A stretch of DNA of 64,000 bases from Bacteriovorax sp. BSW11_IV (GTDB taxonomy: Bacteria; Bdellovibrionota; Bacteriovoracia; Bacteriovoracales; Bacteriovoracaceae). Position 1 is the stretch's first letter. Each line of letters begins with the position of its first letter. The notes below the pieces were generated by a model that worked only from the letters and a program-made list of their open reading frames with translations, made no database searches and was not told the origin of the DNA. The translations under genes and the position numbers were made by a program. Shown one piece after another: positions 54,623-64,000 of this stretch. The stretch spans positions 124,001 to 188,000 of the forward strand of contig NZ_AUNE01000052.1 in NCBI RefSeq assembly GCF_000447755.1. The letters are read 5' to 3'.

Positions 54623-55156
54623 ATGACGCCAAATAATCCTTTCCCAAATAAAGATGATGTCATCATTATTACAACTGGGGGAACAATTGAGAAAACTTAC
54701 GATGAAGTTGAGGGTTCACTCTTAAATCGTGAGTCGGTTGTAAAGCAAATGATTCTTTCGCGCCTACGCTTACCTTATACGCATTTAAATGTTTTTACGA
54801 TTATCAATAAGGACTCATTGGATTTCACTGATGCTGATCGTTTGCTCTTATTAAATACGCTTAAGGCCCAATCTCAGATGGGGCTACCAATTGTTGTACT
54901 CCATGGAACTGATACAATGAGTGTCAGCGCTGAATACGTTCAACAAGAAATGACTGATCTCAATGTTCCAATCGTATTCACAGGGGCCATGAGACCAATG
55001 GGTTTCGAAAATAGCGATGCCACTCAAAATGTTACTGAGGCCATGCTGGCCGCAAAATTATTGGGGCCTGGAATTTATATTAGTTTTCACAACAGAATTT
55101 TCACTGTGCCAGGTGTGAGAAAGAATAAACTTACTCGTACATTTGAAACATTTTAG
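54623..55156 (+). CDS. Half-length asparaginase N-domain protein
   Basis: A 177-residue protein equal to the N-terminal domain of L-asparaginase: VIIITTGGTIEKTYDEVEG with the nucleophile-region Thr, VVLHGTDTMSVSAEYVQQ with the Thr-Asp pair, IVFTGAMRPMGFENSDATQN with the supporting Lys position changed. The second domain (~150 residues) is absent: the stop is clean and the next gene is unrelated. Stand-alone N-domains of this kind occur in several bacteria. Activity is uncertain, since full-length enzymes complete the site with the C-domain of a neighbour subunit. It is close to the next gene (9 bases). Confidence 0.83.
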   Translation: MTPNNPFPNKDDVIIITTGGTIEKTYDEVEGSLLNRESVVKQMILSRLRLPYTHLNVFTIINKDSLDFTDADRLLLLNTLKAQSQMGLPIVVLHGTDTMSVSAEYVQQEMTDLNVPIVFTGAMRPMGFENSDATQNVTEAMLAAKLLGPGIYISFHNRIFTVPGVRKNKLTRTFETF

Positions 55157-55840: not shown

Positions 55841-56137
55841 CTAATCTAGAAAAGTCGTCTTTCCATCATTCACAACAATTCCTGAGAAATCATCGCCTGA
55901 TTCAAATGAACAAGAGTAGCTACCTGTAATTTCAGTGCTCTCGATTTCACCTTTTGAAAGTGGACACATAATGTGCTCATTCACTTGCCAAAGACTTACT
56001 CTAAGAGCGCATTCACCATTTTCATCAATAGTTTTAGAAATAACTTTACCAATGACTTGGGCCTCGTACTGTTTGCAAGAAAAGGCCTGAGTTTGAGTCA
56101 TAGCTGCAAAAGCGATTAAAACAAATAGAGTTTTCAT
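55841..56137 (-). CDS. Small exported protein of unknown function
   Basis: A 98-residue product with signal MKTLFVLIAFAAMTQTQA. The mature part has four Cys (SCKQYEAQ, GECALRV, IMCPLSKG, YSCSFESG) and alternating beta-type residues, so a small disulfide-bonded beta domain is plausible. No family is recognised. It is divergent from the first fibre gene with a 196-bp gap. Confidence 0.6.
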   Translation of the reverse strand: MKTLFVLIAFAAMTQTQAFSCKQYEAQVIGKVISKTIDENGECALRVSLWQVNEHIMCPLSKGEIESTEITGSYSCSFESGDDFSGIVVNDGKTTFLD

Positions 56138-56276
56138 AGGTATCCTTCGTGTGGGTTAAATTTAGGCGCATAGTAATATTCAAAAGAGGGCCTGTAAACA
56201 AATTGGGAATTAAGATTTCGTTAGATATTGTCAAAAATAAGGAATAAGTCACCTAAGTTACATAAATTTATAGCTG

Positions 56277-56299
56277 AGTGTTTATGTTTTCTAAACACT
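56277..56299. promoter_or_regulatory. Inverted repeat upstream of fibre gene 1
   Basis: AGTGTTTA-N7-TAAACACT, perfect over 8 bp, 35 bases before the start codon. The half-site TAAACACT recurs at 58121-58128 before fibre gene 2. It may be an operator or a 5'-UTR hairpin. Confidence 0.5.
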
Positions 56300-56333
56300 G
56301 TCCGAATAGTCACGCGAGTAGGGGGAGGGTGTG

Positions 56334-58076
56334 ATGAAAGCAATATATTTTGTTGTTCTTATTGGTTTATTAGCTTCATGCGTAGTTGGCAATAGTCATA
56401 TTGATGTTTCTGAAATTCATGATGATACACGAGGTGGAAGCTCGCAAATAGGTCGTGCGCAAGTGAGTTCTGTTGCAATTTCAAATAATCAATTGATCGT
56501 CCAAGGAAAATCATTTTTGCCTGTTCAGAAAATTTCCATTACGGGTGATGGTTTTTCAGAAGACTTTTCAATTGAATCCATTACTGAAAATAAAATTGTG
56601 GCCAATGGACTTCAAAATATTTCTTTTAAAGTGGGTTCAATTTTTAATTTAGTCATTAGTGATTCAAACGGATCTGCCTCTTTTTCGGTAACTTTTGAAT
56701 TACAAAATGGAGCAATTGTTGATGCTCATATCAGTGGTACTGCTAATATATCACAATCAAAAATTCAAAATCTAACAACGGACTTAGCTTCGAAATTAAA
56801 TATTGCAGATATTGATATTGACCCTGCATTGGCCGCAAATAGTGACACTAAAGTAAGTTCTCAAAAAGCGGTTAAAGCTTTTGTGGCCAATGAAATAGAT
56901 GCCAATGGCAAATGGGGAAAATCTGGAAGTGATATTTATTTTAATAATGGCAGTGTGGGGATTGGGACGAGCTCTCCCTCTAAGAGACTCGAGGTTTATG
57001 GAACAAGTCAGAGTACATCAACCGTAAGTATTACAAGAAATAGCGACAGCAATTTTGGAAGCTATTTAGAATTCTCAAAATCAAGAGTTGATGGTCTTGG
57101 TGTTAGTGGAGATCGAATTGGTGAAATTAAATTCATTGCACCTGATAGTGCGGGGTCATCATTAACCTATTCAAGAATTTATACGAAATCTACTTCGGCA
57201 ACAAGTGGTAATGCCTCTGGGGATATTTCATTTCAAACCTTGCAATCAGGTGTAGAAAGTACAGCACTTCTTATTTCGGATTATATTTATGCGAATAGAA
57301 GTTTACAGCTTGAGGGAAGCCAAACTGTTTTAATGAGAAATAGTAACAGTTCTTCAGGACATGGGATGAATTTTTATAAGAGAAGATCTTCAGGAGCAGT
57401 TCAATCGGGAGATAATCTCGCATGGATTTCAGCGCAGGGGCATGATGGAACAAATTGGGGATCATACTCAAGTGCAATAAGTTTTCGTGCAACTGAAAGT
57501 CAAACGGCTTCTGCGGCCGGAAGTCAAATTCAATTTCAAACAACTCAAAATGGGACGACTTCGCCCTTTATTCGCATGACTGTTCATCACGATGGGAATG
57601 TTGGAATAGGAACAACTGCGCCATCGCATCTTTTACATGTCAATGGCGTGGCCCGCTCGACCCAAGCGAGCTTTGATACTTCTTCTGATCGAAGAGTGAA
57701 GGATAATATTCGTGATGTTCAAAACGGACTTGAGATGATTATGAAACTTCGTCCAGTTCGTTATGAATATATTAAAGAATATGTAAGTCGTAGCAGGGAA
57801 CTTGCAGGTGTTAAGACAGGATTTGTCGCCCAAGAAGTAGCACTGGTTGACCCTACAATGGTAAAGAAAATTGTAGAGAAATACAGTGACAAAGTTATTG
57901 AGGATTTCAATGTTTTAAATACGGCCAATATGATTCCTTTACTTGTTTCTGCCACTCAAGAACAAGAAAGAGAAATCTCTTCATTGAGAAATATGAATGA
58001 GAAATTGGAGAGTAAAGTAAATCAAATGAAAGAAGTTTTATGCGAAATAAAACCGAGTGCTTCTCTTTGTCATTAG
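56334..58076 (+). CDS. Lipoprotein-anchored tail-fibre-like protein with S74 chaperone domain (fibre 1, MAT-like)
   Basis: A 580-residue surface fibre. The lipobox LLASC is followed by a beta-domain (~40-125) shared with the second fibre, a phage-fibre DTKVSSQKAVKAFV segment, two SVGIGT / NVGIGT shaft turns, and a C-terminal intramolecular chaperone (peptidase S74) starting SSDRRVKDNI, with GFVAQEV inside and a coiled coil at the end. The Ser and Lys of the self-cleavage dyad are present. Bdellovibrio MAT proteins have this plan and recognise prey surfaces; this role is inferred here. The start is ATG 56334 with GGGGGAGG 5 bases upstream. Confidence 0.85.
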   Translation: MKAIYFVVLIGLLASCVVGNSHIDVSEIHDDTRGGSSQIGRAQVSSVAISNNQLIVQGKSFLPVQKISITGDGFSEDFSIESITENKIVANGLQNISFKVGSIFNLVISDSNGSASFSVTFELQNGAIVDAHISGTANISQSKIQNLTTDLASKLNIADIDIDPALAANSDTKVSSQKAVKAFVANEIDANGKWGKSGSDIYFNNGSVGIGTSSPSKRLEVYGTSQSTSTVSITRNSDSNFGSYLEFSKSRVDGLGVSGDRIGEIKFIAPDSAGSSLTYSRIYTKSTSATSGNASGDISFQTLQSGVESTALLISDYIYANRSLQLEGSQTVLMRNSNSSSGHGMNFYKRRSSGAVQSGDNLAWISAQGHDGTNWGSYSSAISFRATESQTASAAGSQIQFQTTQNGTTSPFIRMTVHHDGNVGIGTTAPSHLLHVNGVARSTQASFDTSSDRRVKDNIRDVQNGLEMIMKLRPVRYEYIKEYVSRSRELAGVKTGFVAQEVALVDPTMVKKIVEKYSDKVIEDFNVLNTANMIPLLVSATQEQEREISSLRNMNEKLESKVNQMKEVLCEIKPSASLCH

Positions 58077-58226
58077 GCCATGCAGGTAAAGATGCCATCG
58101 GACAGAGGCGAATTTTAAACACTTAAGTCCTTTACTCGGGCATAAGTTGCCTAAATAACGATCTTTTATTTGGAAAACTTAGAGCTAAGTTAAAATTTCC
58201 GAAGAGAATGTGAGGAGTTATATTAG

Positions 58227-61200
58227 GTGTTTAGGGTACATTTTCACATTATTCTTTTGTTTGGGACCATATTCATAACACAGTCATGTGTAATGGATAA
58301 GGGGAGCATCACTATCTCTGGGATCGGAGATAAAATCTTAGGTGCTAAAACTCAGATGGATAAAGCGAAAGTTTTTTCTGTATCTATCGAAAATAATCAA
58401 CTCATCATTCAAGGTGAAGATCTTTTATCCGCAAAAAAAGTTTCAGTAACTGGAGATAGCTTTTCTGAAAACTTTGCCATTGAGTCTGTCTCTGCATCTA
58501 AAATCGTGGCCAATGGATTGAATAATATCTCTTTTAAAGTTGGTGCTCTTTTCAATCTCATTATCAGTGACAGTTATGGTTCTGCTACATTTTCAGTAAC
58601 GTTTGAGCTTCAAGATGGAGCGGTCACGGCCACAAAGATTCATGATATGGGAGCAGCAGAAGGTCAGGTTCTAAGATTCTCCGCAGGAGAGTGGGGGCCG
58701 GCCGATCTTTCAGGACTTAACTACGCAGGCAATTGGGATGCTTCAAGTTTGGCAGCTCCTTCTGTTTCACCAAGTGGCGGGGATTATTATATCGTTACAA
58801 GTTCAGGGGCCACAGATTTAGCAGGTGGACCAGGTACGAATTCATGGCTTGTTGGTGATTGGGCCATCTACAACGCTGTTCTTGGTCAGTGGGAGAAAGT
58901 CGCAAACGGCTCAACTGTAACTAGTTTTAACGGCAGAAACGGAGTCGTTACCGCTCAAGATGGTGACTACTCTCTTAGTGGTTTGTCTGATGTTGATATG
59001 GCAGGAGCGAGTGCGGGTAAAGTTTTAAAATATGATGGTACGAAATGGATTATGGGCGATGACCTCTCGGGAGGTGGTGCCGGTTCTGTCAGTTCAACTG
59101 AAATCGCTGACGGCTCCATTGTTGATGCAGATATCAATGCCTCTGCAAATATCTCTCAATCAAAAATTCAAAATTTAGCAACAGATCTTGCTGCAAAATT
59201 ACCTCTAACAGGAGGCACCTTAGCTGGTGCTCTTGATATGGGTGGAAATAATATTGGCAATGTCGGAACTGTTGATGGGGTAGATGTTTCATCGCTAAGT
59301 ACATCAGTTGGAACGAATACTTCAAATATTTCTACAAATGCAGGAGATATTCTTTCTTTACAAACAAGTGTTGCTACTAACGCTACAGATATTGCGACGA
59401 ACACCACTGCAATTGGCACAAAGTTCAATTCTTCAGATGTTGACACCGATATTACTTTGGCCGCGGATAGCGATGGAAAAGTCCCTTCCCAAAAGGCCAT
59501 TAAGGCCTATGTCGATAACGCAGTTACAGGTGTTGGGGCAACTGATTTTGTAAAACGTGACGGAACGATTGCAATGACTGGCTCTCTTGATGCTTCTACT
59601 TTCGGGATTAAACTTAAAGATGCAGATATCAATTATGTTACGATAAAAGCAAATAATGCAATGAGTGCAGATTTAAACTTTATACTTCCGGCAACAAATG
59701 GAACAAGTGGATATGTTCTTTCCACTGATGGTGCTGGAAATTTAAATTGGATTGCACCCACAACAGGAAGTGTCACCAATGTTGCCGTTACGGCCCCTTT
59801 ACAATCGAGTGGTGGGGCAACACCAAATTTATCCATTACACAATCAAGCTCATCTACAAATGGTTATCTCTCAAGCACAGATTGGAATACCTTTAATAAT
59901 AAGGTCGCGACATCTCGTACGATCAACGGTAAGTCTCTGGCCAGTGATGTGACATTAGTCACGACAGATATTACAGAAGGGACAAATCTTTATTTTACGG
60001 ATGCTCGCGCTAAAAGTGCAGCAGTTGTAAATTCAACTGCTGGTTCCCAAACCGATCAAGCGCCAAGTGTCGCTTCAATTAAAACTTATGTAGATACAGC
60101 AGATGCTACCAAAGTTGATAAGACTACAACTGTTAATGGTAAGGCCCTCTCAAGTAACGTTACTTTGGTAACTACTGATGTTGCAGAAGGGACAAATCTC
60201 TATTTTACAGACGCTCGAGCTAAGAGTGCTTCAGTCGTTAACTCAACTGCAGGAAGTGAAGCCGATCAAGCGGCATCTGTAAGTGCGATGAAAACGTATG
60301 TCACAAACGAAATTGATGCCAATGGAAAATGGGTTAAAACGGGAAGTGATATTTATTATAATACAGGTAACGTTGGAATAGGAACAGCGACGCCAACGTC
60401 CCAATTGCATGTTGCAGGAAGTAGTACTGATACTGTTGCTGGCTTTCCAAACTTTATTCATTTCGTTCTTGATCTTGATAACACCGCGCTTTCTGCGACA
60501 AGTAATAGAGGATTGCAATCAACAGTTAACTATAATTCTGCACTAGATAGTACTGGAACAAATGCTTCTAATGTCGGCTACTTTGTTCATAACTCTGCGG
60601 CCAATATTACTCGTGCCCATGCATCAGAAGGGGCCATCGTTTCCATGTCTACAGGTAATACCACTCACGCCGTAGGAGTGAGAGCGAGTTATTCTGCACA
60701 AAGCGGAACAATTGAAAATGCCTACGGTGTAGAAGTCGCATCTGGTGGAATTGAAGCGAATATTACTAATGGTTACGGTGTCTATGTTAAGACAGTGAAA
60801 GGAACCAATAAATGGTCATTTTTCACTAACGATGCTACTGCTCCAAGCTTCTTTGCAGGTAGTGTTGGTGTTGGAACCCAAACTCCTGATACTCAACTTG
60901 AAATAGCGGGGAGTGGAACTGGGGCCGGCAGAGGGATTTCTTCTACCGCCTATAGTAATACAAATCCAGCAGGTCTTCTTGTACTTAGAGGGGCAAGAGG
61001 AACAGAGGCGGCGCCAACGGGAATGCTAAATGGTTCACGATTAGGTTGGTTGAGTTTTAGTGGACATGATGGAACTAATTTTGTTTCTCAAAATAATCCA
61101 ACTGGTATATCTGCTAAAGCTGCTGAAGACTGGAGTGCTACTGGTCACGGTTCTTATTTATATTTTCTCACGACAGGAATTGGTCAAATTGATGGTTCAG

Positions 61201-63365
61201 TTCGCATGACAATTACTGATAGTGGTAATGTGGGAGTTGGAACAAGTTCACCTGCAGAAAAACTTGATGTAGTTGGTAATATAAAAGCAACGGCCTTTAT
61301 TGGTGATGGTTCTTCTTTAACTGGTGTCACAGCAAGTAGTACAAGTAATAATGTGAACTCAGTGATTACGGCCGATGCTGATAATAATGGAACAGGAGAC
61401 ATTCTTTTCAATACGGGAACTAATACAAGAATGGCCATAACCAATTCAGGTAAAGTAGGGGTTGGAACAACTTCACCTACAAAAGATATTCATATCTCGG
61501 CCAGCGGGACCACTTCAGGGCCAGGTATTAGACTCCAAAATACCAGTACCAATGGGGCCGATTTTCAAATGGTTGTTACCGCTGATGGCCATGGTAATGG
61601 TGCGAATAAATTTATCTTACAAGATAACAATGCAGGTGATCCACGATTGACAGTTGATGGTAACGGTAATGTTGGGATCGGTACGGCATCTCCTTCTGGA
61701 CTTTTGCACTTAGAAAAAGCAGATGCACCACTTTTAAGAATTACAAGAGGTGCAGTGTTAAATGCTCTTTTAGGAGACCTTGGAGCTACAAATAATGGGC
61801 AATTGAATCTTTATGATTCAACAGGAACCTTAGGAACCTTACTCACTTCAAGTGGCCCATCTTATTTACTTGGTGGAAATTTGGGAATCGGAACAAATGC
61901 GCCTGCTCAGCCTCTTCATATTCAATCAACATCTAATATCCCTCTTTTAGTTGAAAGTACTGATGCCGTTGCAAGAATAGAATTAAAGGATCCAACATCA
62001 TCAAATGCCATTGTAACAAGTTCAGGCCTTTTGCAATTTACAACCAATGGGACAACTGCCGCAGAAACCAGAATGACCATCGATTCTACTGGTAATGTCG
62101 GTATTGGAACGTCTGCGCCAAATGCTACGAATAAGATGACTGTAAAAGCTGGCGGGGGAGCTTCTGGAATTAGAGTTGAGTCTGAAGATGGTACGGAGGC
62201 CGGACACTTTTGGCCTTCATGGATGACTTTAAAGAAGGGTGGCACAAACACATATATGGGAATTGGACTTCAAGATGATGGTCAACAGTGGAACCTTGTT
62301 CATCATAATGATGGTTCATTTCGCATCCAAGATGTGACAGCATCTTTTGCTAATCGTTTTACAATTACGGATGTCACTGGAAACGTCGGAATTGGTGCCA
62401 CTGCTCCTACATCAAAACTGGCGATCGTCCAAACTGACGACACTGCACACAAGGGAATTAGACTTACAAATTCTGCAAATACGGCATCATTTGGTATCTA
62501 TGTTGATGCTACAGATAAAACACATATTGGTGCACCTACAGCTTCGCCAGATGCGATGGTTTTAGAAAATAGTTCCGGAATTGTTGAATTCACTGCCAAC
62601 CGTCAATGGCTAACGGGAAAAGATGGCGCAGACAATTTTTGGTATGGAACAAAAAGTGGTGACGACACTTCAAGTTTTTTTGGTGTTAAATCAGATGCTT
62701 CGAGTATTCCATCTTCTATAATGTTTAGAACTCAAAATGTTGAAAGAGCGGTTATTACAAGTGCAGGTAACGTTGGTATTGGAACTTCAAGTCCAGGTTC
62801 AAGATTGGATATCGTTGGTGGATCGGCCGCACTACATATTAGACATTCTTCTCAACCAACATTTTGGCAAGTGGGCCCTGATGGCTCAAATAATTTTATT
62901 ATATACAATCAAGCAGGTAATGGCGCCTATCTTACTAATGGTGGTACTTCCTGGGTTGCCAATTCTGATAGAAGACTTAAAAGAGATATCGAAACTATTC
63001 CTAATGCTCTTACAAAATTGAGTGAAATAGATGGTGTGACTTATTGGTATAACGAAGACGATTCTGAACAACAGCGAAGAGTTGGGGTTATTGCCCAAGA
63101 TGTAAAAAAAGTTTTACCAGAGGCGGTAACTGAAAGAAACGGTTTTCTAGGAGTTCGCTACCAAGAGATTATCCCTTTAGTTATAAATGCCACAAAAGAA
63201 TTTTATCAAAAATATCTGGTGGGTCAGTCACAACAAGATGAGAAGATTCGTCATTTAGAAGAAGAGAACGAGAAGCTTAGAGCTAAGAATGATGAGATTG
63301 AAAAGCGACTTGAAGCTCTTGAGAGGAAAATGGCCAGTCTTCCTGATGAGACCGAATCGAATTAA
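58227..63365 (+). CDS. Giant lipoprotein-anchored tail-fibre-like protein with S74 chaperone domain (fibre 2, MAT-like)
   Basis: A 1712-residue paralogue of fibre 1. It has a lipoprotein-type signal (IILLFGTIFITQSC), the shared N-terminal beta-domain, a phage-fibre-like WxxGDW/NGRNG module (~165-255), DGKVPSQKAIKAYV segments, a tandem repeat around GTNLYFTDARAKSA (two copies), and about nine shaft turns of the G(N/S/K)(V/L)G(I/V)GT type separated by variable, phage-like domains. The C-terminal S74 domain starts NSDRRLKRDIE, contains VGVIAQDVKKVLPEAV, and ends in a long coiled coil. Start GTG 58227 follows GAGGAG. A trimeric surface fibre is probable; the ligand is unknown. Confidence 0.87.
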   Translation: MFRVHFHIILLFGTIFITQSCVMDKGSITISGIGDKILGAKTQMDKAKVFSVSIENNQLIIQGEDLLSAKKVSVTGDSFSENFAIESVSASKIVANGLNNISFKVGALFNLIISDSYGSATFSVTFELQDGAVTATKIHDMGAAEGQVLRFSAGEWGPADLSGLNYAGNWDASSLAAPSVSPSGGDYYIVTSSGATDLAGGPGTNSWLVGDWAIYNAVLGQWEKVANGSTVTSFNGRNGVVTAQDGDYSLSGLSDVDMAGASAGKVLKYDGTKWIMGDDLSGGGAGSVSSTEIADGSIVDADINASANISQSKIQNLATDLAAKLPLTGGTLAGALDMGGNNIGNVGTVDGVDVSSLSTSVGTNTSNISTNAGDILSLQTSVATNATDIATNTTAIGTKFNSSDVDTDITLAADSDGKVPSQKAIKAYVDNAVTGVGATDFVKRDGTIAMTGSLDASTFGIKLKDADINYVTIKANNAMSADLNFILPATNGTSGYVLSTDGAGNLNWIAPTTGSVTNVAVTAPLQSSGGATPNLSITQSSSSTNGYLSSTDWNTFNNKVATSRTINGKSLASDVTLVTTDITEGTNLYFTDARAKSAAVVNSTAGSQTDQAPSVASIKTYVDTADATKVDKTTTVNGKALSSNVTLVTTDVAEGTNLYFTDARAKSASVVNSTAGSEADQAASVSAMKTYVTNEIDANGKWVKTGSDIYYNTGNVGIGTATPTSQLHVAGSSTDTVAGFPNFIHFVLDLDNTALSATSNRGLQSTVNYNSALDSTGTNASNVGYFVHNSAANITRAHASEGAIVSMSTGNTTHAVGVRASYSAQSGTIENAYGVEVASGGIEANITNGYGVYVKTVKGTNKWSFFTNDATAPSFFAGSVGVGTQTPDTQLEIAGSGTGAGRGISSTAYSNTNPAGLLVLRGARGTEAAPTGMLNGSRLGWLSFSGHDGTNFVSQNNPTGISAKAAEDWSATGHGSYLYFLTTGIGQIDGSVRMTITDSGNVGVGTSSPAEKLDVVGNIKATAFIGDGSSLTGVTASSTSNNVNSVITADADNNGTGDILFNTGTNTRMAITNSGKVGVGTTSPTKDIHISASGTTSGPGIRLQNTSTNGADFQMVVTADGHGNGANKFILQDNNAGDPRLTVDGNGNVGIGTASPSGLLHLEKADAPLLRITRGAVLNALLGDLGATNNGQLNLYDSTGTLGTLLTSSGPSYLLGGNLGIGTNAPAQPLHIQSTSNIPLLVESTDAVARIELKDPTSSNAIVTSSGLLQFTTNGTTAAETRMTIDSTGNVGIGTSAPNATNKMTVKAGGGASGIRVESEDGTEAGHFWPSWMTLKKGGTNTYMGIGLQDDGQQWNLVHHNDGSFRIQDVTASFANRFTITDVTGNVGIGATAPTSKLAIVQTDDTAHKGIRLTNSANTASFGIYVDATDKTHIGAPTASPDAMVLENSSGIVEFTANRQWLTGKDGADNFWYGTKSGDDTSSFFGVKSDASSIPSSIMFRTQNVERAVITSAGNVGIGTSSPGSRLDIVGGSAALHIRHSSQPTFWQVGPDGSNNFIIYNQAGNGAYLTNGGTSWVANSDRRLKRDIETIPNALTKLSEIDGVTYWYNEDDSEQQRRVGVIAQDVKKVLPEAVTERNGFLGVRYQEIIPLVINATKEFYQKYLVGQSQQDEKIRHLEEENEKLRAKNDEIEKRLEALERKMASLPDETESN
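59916..60305 (+). repeat. Tandem duplication inside fibre 2
   Basis: Two ~65-residue units in a row, each with NGK(S/A)L(A/S), (S/D)(D/N)VTLVTTD, EGTNLYFTDARAKSA, VVNSTAGS and a QA(P/A)SV...KTYV end. The DNA copies are clearly related but have diverged at many third positions, so the duplication is not very recent. Confidence 0.8.
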
Positions 63366-63369
63366 TTGT

Positions 63370-63999
63370 CTAAAGTAGCTCGTTCATCTTCGAAAAGCAG
63401 TTCGCTCCATCTTCAATTCTAGAAATCAATAAGTCTATATTAGGATTGTTGTATCCCGATTTTAAAATTTTCATGAATTGTTCTTTGTATTCAGAATTTT
63501 TTAAAAGCTCAATAAACCAATTTTCATGAATTAATTTAGTGTTTATAAATGGCATGATATTATCATTGAGATAGAATCTACCGTTCATAATTGGATTATT
63601 GTGATACTTAGTTACTAGTTCTTTTACATCATTTCGATATTGACTCTCAAGTAGGATATCAAGTAGTTTTAACTCTTTCATTCGAGATTCTGTGTAAATT
63701 CTTTTTTCTAATAACTTTATTAATGAATCAAAAGCTTTCTTAGATGACTCGTTATTGATTCTTGGTAAATTGAGATACGCTTCTACAAAAAATTCCGAAA
63801 TCTCGAAAATAGTCATATTCTCAAAAACATTGATTGCTAAAAGATCAATTGCTTGACGATCATAAGTCGTAAGAATTGAATCTAATTGAATTTTGTAATA
63901 AGCACGGTAAAGGCGATTGATCTCATCGTCGTTTTGGTTTCGACCAATCTCTGATAACATTTTGAAGAAATCGTAAATTTCTATATCTGTTGACATCAT
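63370..63999 (-). CDS. Unknown helical protein at the window edge (possibly truncated)
   Basis: A 209-residue, Leu/Ile/Asn-rich, all-helical-looking protein without signal or membrane segment (e.g. IFEISEFFVEAYLNLPRI, KAFDSLIKLLEKRIY, FIELLKNSEYKEQFMKIL). No family is recognised; the pattern suggests helical repeats. The Met at 63999 lies one base from the window end, so an upstream start cannot be excluded. It is convergent with fibre gene 2 with a 4-base gap. Confidence 0.55.
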   Translation of the reverse strand: MMSTDIEIYDFFKMLSEIGRNQNDDEINRLYRAYYKIQLDSILTTYDRQAIDLLAINVFENMTIFEISEFFVEAYLNLPRINNESSKKAFDSLIKLLEKRIYTESRMKELKLLDILLESQYRNDVKELVTKYHNNPIMNGRFYLNDNIMPFINTKLIHENWFIELLKNSEYKEQFMKILKSGYNNPNIDLLISRIEDGANCFSKMNELL

Positions 64000-64000
64000 T

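Follow-up and report, generated by a model that had tools for sequence, protein, structure and literature searches.

We analysed a 64,000-nucleotide stretch of the Bacteriovorax sp. BSW11_IV genome (contig NZ_AUNE01000052.1), hereafter the window, in which two neighbouring plus-strand genes encode phage-fibre-like proteins, here called the short and the long fibre (Table 1). Each protein begins with a predicted lipoprotein signal peptide and a beta-rich N-terminal base, continues into a shaft with capping loops and ends in a Peptidase_S74 (S74) chaperone/protease domain followed by a coiled-coil tail. On one side of the pair, a 177-aa asparaginase N-terminal-domain protein (window 54623-55156) has a full-length match of 88% identity in a genome of the same genus. 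On the other, a minus-strand gene in the same block (window 63373-65208) encodes a 612-aa exported protein without clear family; the part within the window has no match in the 11 relatives searched.

Table 1 Features of the fibre pair and its block, numbered from the first nucleotide of the window
Feature	Position	Strand	Evidence and remarks
Block of ~9.4 kb, part within the window	55841..64000		98-aa gene, both fibres, 612-aa gene; continues to about 65.4 kb; missing at the locus in two relatives
Short fibre gene	56334..58076	+	580 aa from ATG, 581 from GTG at 56331; S74 above Pfam cut-off; PDB match to MAT tip 8oml, E 1e-13
Short fibre, lipoprotein signal peptide MKAIYFVVLIGLLAS, then Cys	56334..56381	+	Lipid-acceptor Cys codon at 56379; lipobox ...GLLAS, then Cys; lipobox scan
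Short fibre, lipid-type base, predicted IPT/TIG-like Ig fold	56445..56697	+	Alignments and fold comparison; limits transferred from the model of the long protein
Short fibre, capping-loop motif VGIGTSSPSKRLEV	56955..56996	+	Motif count
Short fibre, capping-loop motif VGIGTTAPSHLLHV	57600..57641	+	Motif count
Short fibre, S74 chaperone/protease, then coiled-coil tail	57684..57863	+	SDRRVK from 57684, the predicted self-cleavage site
Long fibre gene, 1712 aa, GTG start	58227..63365	+	ORF
Long fibre, lipoprotein signal peptide MFRVHFHIILLFGTIFITQS, then Cys	58227..58289	+	Lipid-acceptor Cys codon at 58287; relaxed lipobox ITQSC
Long fibre, lipid-type base, predicted IPT/TIG-like Ig fold	58353..58604	+	AlphaFold model, domain pLDDT about 90; VIA Z 8.4 to IPT domain
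Long fibre, neck, about 500 residues	58641..60146	+	Short protein without neck; common to C40, C12 and C33 paralogues
Long fibre, shaft, nine capping loops	60372..62813	+	Loops at 60372, 60864, 61230, 61455, 61671, 61881, 62097, 62385, 62772; MAT tip structures 8oml, 8on4, 8ol4, 8ond match here
Long fibre, S74 chaperone/protease	62964..63131	+	SDRRLK from 62964; coiled-coil tail to 63365

Both S74 domains score above the Pfam cut-off (E 8.6e-13 in the short fibre, 1.9e-17 in the long) and carry an SDxxxK motif. GIGT-type turns number exactly two in the short fibre and exactly nine in the long, and a stricter capping-loop motif occurs twice and eight times, respectively, whereas none of 200 shuffles gave more than one. 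The third residue of these loops is I or V, a type that fits the consensus V-G-[GN]-x-x-x-P-x-x-x-L published for the beta-helical shaft of Bdellovibrio mosaic adhesive trimers (MATs; PMC10769870). Crystal structures of MAT tips from strain HD100 (8oml, 8on4, 8ond and 8ojn) match the shaft and tip region by sequence with E values of 1e-13 to 1e-3, and further PDB matches represent phage and cellular kinds of S74 (7dc3, 6f45 and 4uw8). The bases of the two fibres are 53% identical over 133 aa, and the modelled base domain of the long protein spans about 84 residues (23-106 of the mature chain). These results bear out much of what a first-pass annotation had read from the DNA, namely a lipobox, a common N-terminal domain and an S74 domain on both proteins, two versus about nine turns, and phage-like parts, which we see as matches of phage tail-fibre profiles to shaft and tip. 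Its comparison with Bdellovibrio MATs holds for shaft and tip, which are homologous to the solved MAT tips, but not for the base, which differs from the MAT base; the host genome itself belongs to the Bacteriovoracaceae rather than to Bdellovibrio. Phage tail spikes and fibres (endosialidase, the T5 L-shaped fibre) and cellular MYRF likewise carry a C-terminal S74 domain with SDxxxK, but the genes of the pair belong to a bacterial chromosome, and their products have a lipoprotein signal peptide and a base domain of cellular kind.

Base-profile searches identified 14 base-bearing fibres in the genome, seven with the base of the pair (lipid-type) and seven with a MAT-type base. The genome encodes 10 S74 proteins, and two of the seven lipid-type fibres, on contig C12, are without S74. 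Five lipid-type fibres thus exist besides the pair, further copies that the first-pass annotation had proposed to look for, and their sharing of one base agrees with its picture of a constant base bearing variable lengths and tips. Lipid-type fibres without S74 contain FGE-sulfatase (C-type-lectin-like), F5/8C, LamG and other domains, and LamG and C1q domains are found among the fibre paralogues. Alignments break off abruptly along the proteins. The long fibre matches a paralogue on contig C40 at 69% identity over 751 aa, with the 69% confined to residues 1-738 and background beyond; identity to paralogue C12b is about 80% at residues 101-350, none at 451-900 and 60-82% at 1001-1150. The short fibre aligns to the long one through the base and then jumps to position 643 of the long protein, the neck missing. 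The pair had also been described as paralogous, and the two do have one base type; because the closest paralogue of the long protein lies on another contig (C40), they are neighbours on one base and not a tandem duplicate, and we reject simple tandem duplication.

Exchange also appears to cross base types. The shaft and S74 domain of the long protein align to the MAT-type fibre C2b at 28% identity over 874 aa, whereas the bases of the two do not align. A tree of 62 S74 domains, weakly resolved from few columns, requires at least 16 base-label changes, of which 4 are forced by well-supported branches; shuffled labels give 21. At the level of sequence, shafts and S74 tips are common to both bases.

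One and the same lipobox scan was applied to both sets of bases. A strict lipobox is present in 70 of 84 distinct lipid-type bases, and a Cys occupies the lipobox place in 81 of the 84 (11 of them beyond the strict scan, by eye); one of the remainder has no Cys and two have a long insert. Of 71 MAT-type bases the scan called 3, each with the Cys inside the hydrophobic stretch and an ordinary cleavage site after it, and a true lipobox is absent from about 65 copies of the MAT-type base. Fisher's test on lipobox presence in the two sets gives 8e-26, a value that overstates certainty because the rows are related and not independent. Lipid-type copies from other families of the phylum have a lipobox-like Cys in seven of eight cases examined, and Asp occurs at position +2 in none of 58 lipid-type bases. 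In the pair, the Cys directly follows the hydrophobic stretch and is kept in relatives, and both proteins are predicted to be lipidated. Two fibres of one genome (L071 and L137 in G123) show a long Ala/Ser-rich stretch between the signal peptide and the lipid-type base.

The AlphaFold model of the lipid-type base predicts seven Ig strands (domain pLDDT about 90). Fold comparison places IPT domains best, with VIA Z 8.4 for plexin A2 and 8.3 for MET at r.m.s.d. 2.8-3.1 over 74 residues, a range that allows chance resemblance. Pfam TIG is silent on this base, Pfam and NCBIfam searches assign it no family (weak matches such as CoaZ_rpt_PGGG reach 0.003), and a profile search of the PDB returned nothing significant; the base is predicted to adopt an IPT/TIG-like Ig fold on a modest fold match. 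The MAT-type base is predicted to contain strands plus a helix, and its fold comparison gave middling matches alone (best Z 6.8), none of them clear.

HD100 MATs (Bd1334, Bd2133 and Bd3182; NF053851 Bdello_MAT_N) resemble the pair in their beta-helical shaft, V-G-x-x capping loops, S74 or other tips and many mosaic paralogues. They differ at the N terminus, where they have an ordinary signal peptide and MAT_N in place of a lipobox and a predicted IPT/TIG-like base. Some 28 Bdellovibrio MAT_N proteins have ordinary signal peptides, including Bd1334 of HD100, a 1151-aa protein that contains the 8oml sequence and Bdello_MAT_N. Of 129 Bacteriovoracaceae genomes, 50 contain the lipid-type base, as do 8 genomes from other families in the phylum; it was not detected at E 0.001 in the Bdellovibrio-type genomes searched, HD100 among them.

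In two relatives, one of the same genus (G001) and G003, the locus runs from htpG and an asparaginase-like gene to the gene at window position 65524; the fibres and the 612-aa gene are missing, and G001 also keeps a membrane gene. On this comparison the pair belongs to a block that has been either gained or lost. The matches of phage tail-fibre profiles to shaft and tip would also suit genes for the tail or tail fibres of a prophage or of a particle derived from a phage, but we regard such an origin as very improbable. The neighbours of the pair are HtpG, the asparaginase-like protein, a histidine kinase and an alcohol dehydrogenase; the block locus contains no integrase or phage genes, and no tRNA lies near the pair (the single tRNA of the window is at 24.7 kb). 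Moreover, virion fibres are not expected to have lipoprotein signal peptides, and numerous paralogues are dispersed across the genome. The phage structural genes that the first-pass annotation had named as a sign of prophage origin are thus absent next to the pair, which has housekeeping genes upstream. A quite different objection is that the pair are canonical MATs with no more than a diverged N-terminal domain, the two bases forming one family. Shaft, tips and the following linker (MGA..GQVLkwngt) are identical in kind, and each base is beta-rich and about 100-130 residues long, yet we consider a single family unlikely. In profile-profile comparison, a 28-column linker after both bases aligns and the bases themselves do not. 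Bdello_MAT_N weakly matches 27 of 28 MAT-type bases (best E 3.9e-8, under the model's 60-bit cut-off) but none of 58 lipid-type bases and neither protein of the pair. The predicted topologies differ, as described above, and the signal peptide types are opposite. Since only the linker aligns, it likely marks the joint where bases are swapped.

The published definition of MATs specifies a conserved N-terminal domain of ~130 aa directly after an ordinary signal peptide (PMC10769870). By that definition and on their sequences, the pair are not MATs, and because this N-terminal feature is missing we class them as MAT-type fibres on a lipoprotein base. We think it probable that they are two of a repertoire of such adhesive fibres in the Bacteriovoracaceae, with trimerization, lipidation and surface display predicted, and that they probably work like MATs. 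Documented at sequence level are the lipobox, the base, the capping loops, the S74 motif, modular exchange and the two base types. We infer trimer formation, self-cleavage, surface display and adhesion from published MAT and S74 work, in which autocleavage of the Bd3182 S74 domain at its catalytic serine was demonstrated (PMC10769870). The pair might instead serve as lipid-anchored adhesins for general attachment to particles, biofilm or surfaces and not for prey recognition, a role we rate as rather unlikely, although MAT-like bases with S74 in Bacteroidota such as Tenacibaculum and the generic carbohydrate-binding folds among the tips speak for it. Against it, the Bdellovibrio relatives are displayed on the cell surface, one of them as a binder of prey glycans (PMC10769870). 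For the pair in this organism, prey recognition would be a guess by analogy.

In the mechanism that we propose for MAT-type fibres on a lipoprotein base, each fibre would be exported by Sec, lipidated at the Cys and sorted to the outer membrane, consistent with the lack of Asp at +2. Three chains would intertwine to form a beta-helical shaft, variable in length and interrupted by capping loops. The C-terminal S74 domain would act as a chaperone of trimerization and then remove itself by cleavage on the N-terminal side of the SDxxxK serine. The binding tip thereby uncovered would contact prey or some other surface. Paralogues would differ in length and tip as a result of recombination among neck, shaft and tip modules on a constant base. 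On the assumption that each residue adds the same rise as in the model of Bd3182, which is about 550 Å long (PMC10769870), extrapolation gives mature shafts of roughly 300 Å for the short fibre and 1100 Å for the long. Counting against lipid anchoring is the passage of a lipid-anchored fibre of ~1500 residues across the outer membrane.

These findings extend MAT-type fibres to the Bacteriovoracaceae, for which a small literature search (Halobacteriovorax/Bacteriovoracaceae) found nothing relevant on such fibres. According to the founding paper, it is unknown what anchors MAT fibres to the surface of the predator (PMC10769870). A natural family that joins MAT-type shafts and tips to an evident lipid anchor offers a simple, testable answer to how fibres are held in at least one branch, and suggests a second way of fixing phage-like fibres to the cell beside the published Bdellovibrio type. 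We tentatively propose, as a possibility somewhat short of an even chance, that a predatory lineage uses two unrelated docking bases, one of the MAT kind without a lipid and one IPT-like and lipidated, for one fibre library whose shafts and tips are exchanged. If so, the base would determine the place at which a fibre is held and the firmness of its attachment, for example whether it is kept on the predator outer membrane or is shed or deposited in prey, and genomes with both bases would allow the role of the base to be studied on matched fibres. The predicted fold of the lipid-type base is similar to that of Ig/TIG-like domains in Bacteroides SGBP-B (6e57; VIA Z 6.9), a glycan-binding, lipid-anchored surface protein. 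SGBP-B differs in having no beta-helical shaft and no S74, so that the likeness is one of fold alone.

Several fibres in other genomes add to this variety. Two S74 fibres of Bacteroidota (L200:5440-8658 and L201:4402-8556; Tenacibaculum and Chitinophagales) match the MAT-type base profile at the N terminus after an ordinary signal peptide; judged by sequence, MAT-like bases may reach beyond Bdellovibrionota. A lipid-type base from another family (L247 in G056) is almost like those of two Bacteriovoracaceae genomes (G059 and G083), reflecting recent transfer or a binning error. In a 2040-aa MAT-type fibre (L044:2317-8436), repeated C1q-like modules seem, by eye, to occupy the middle of the protein, and tip-type domains may thus sit within the shaft too. 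A genome from another family of the phylum (G043) encodes fourteen short S74 proteins, mostly of ~300 aa and several in tandem, for example on contig C87.
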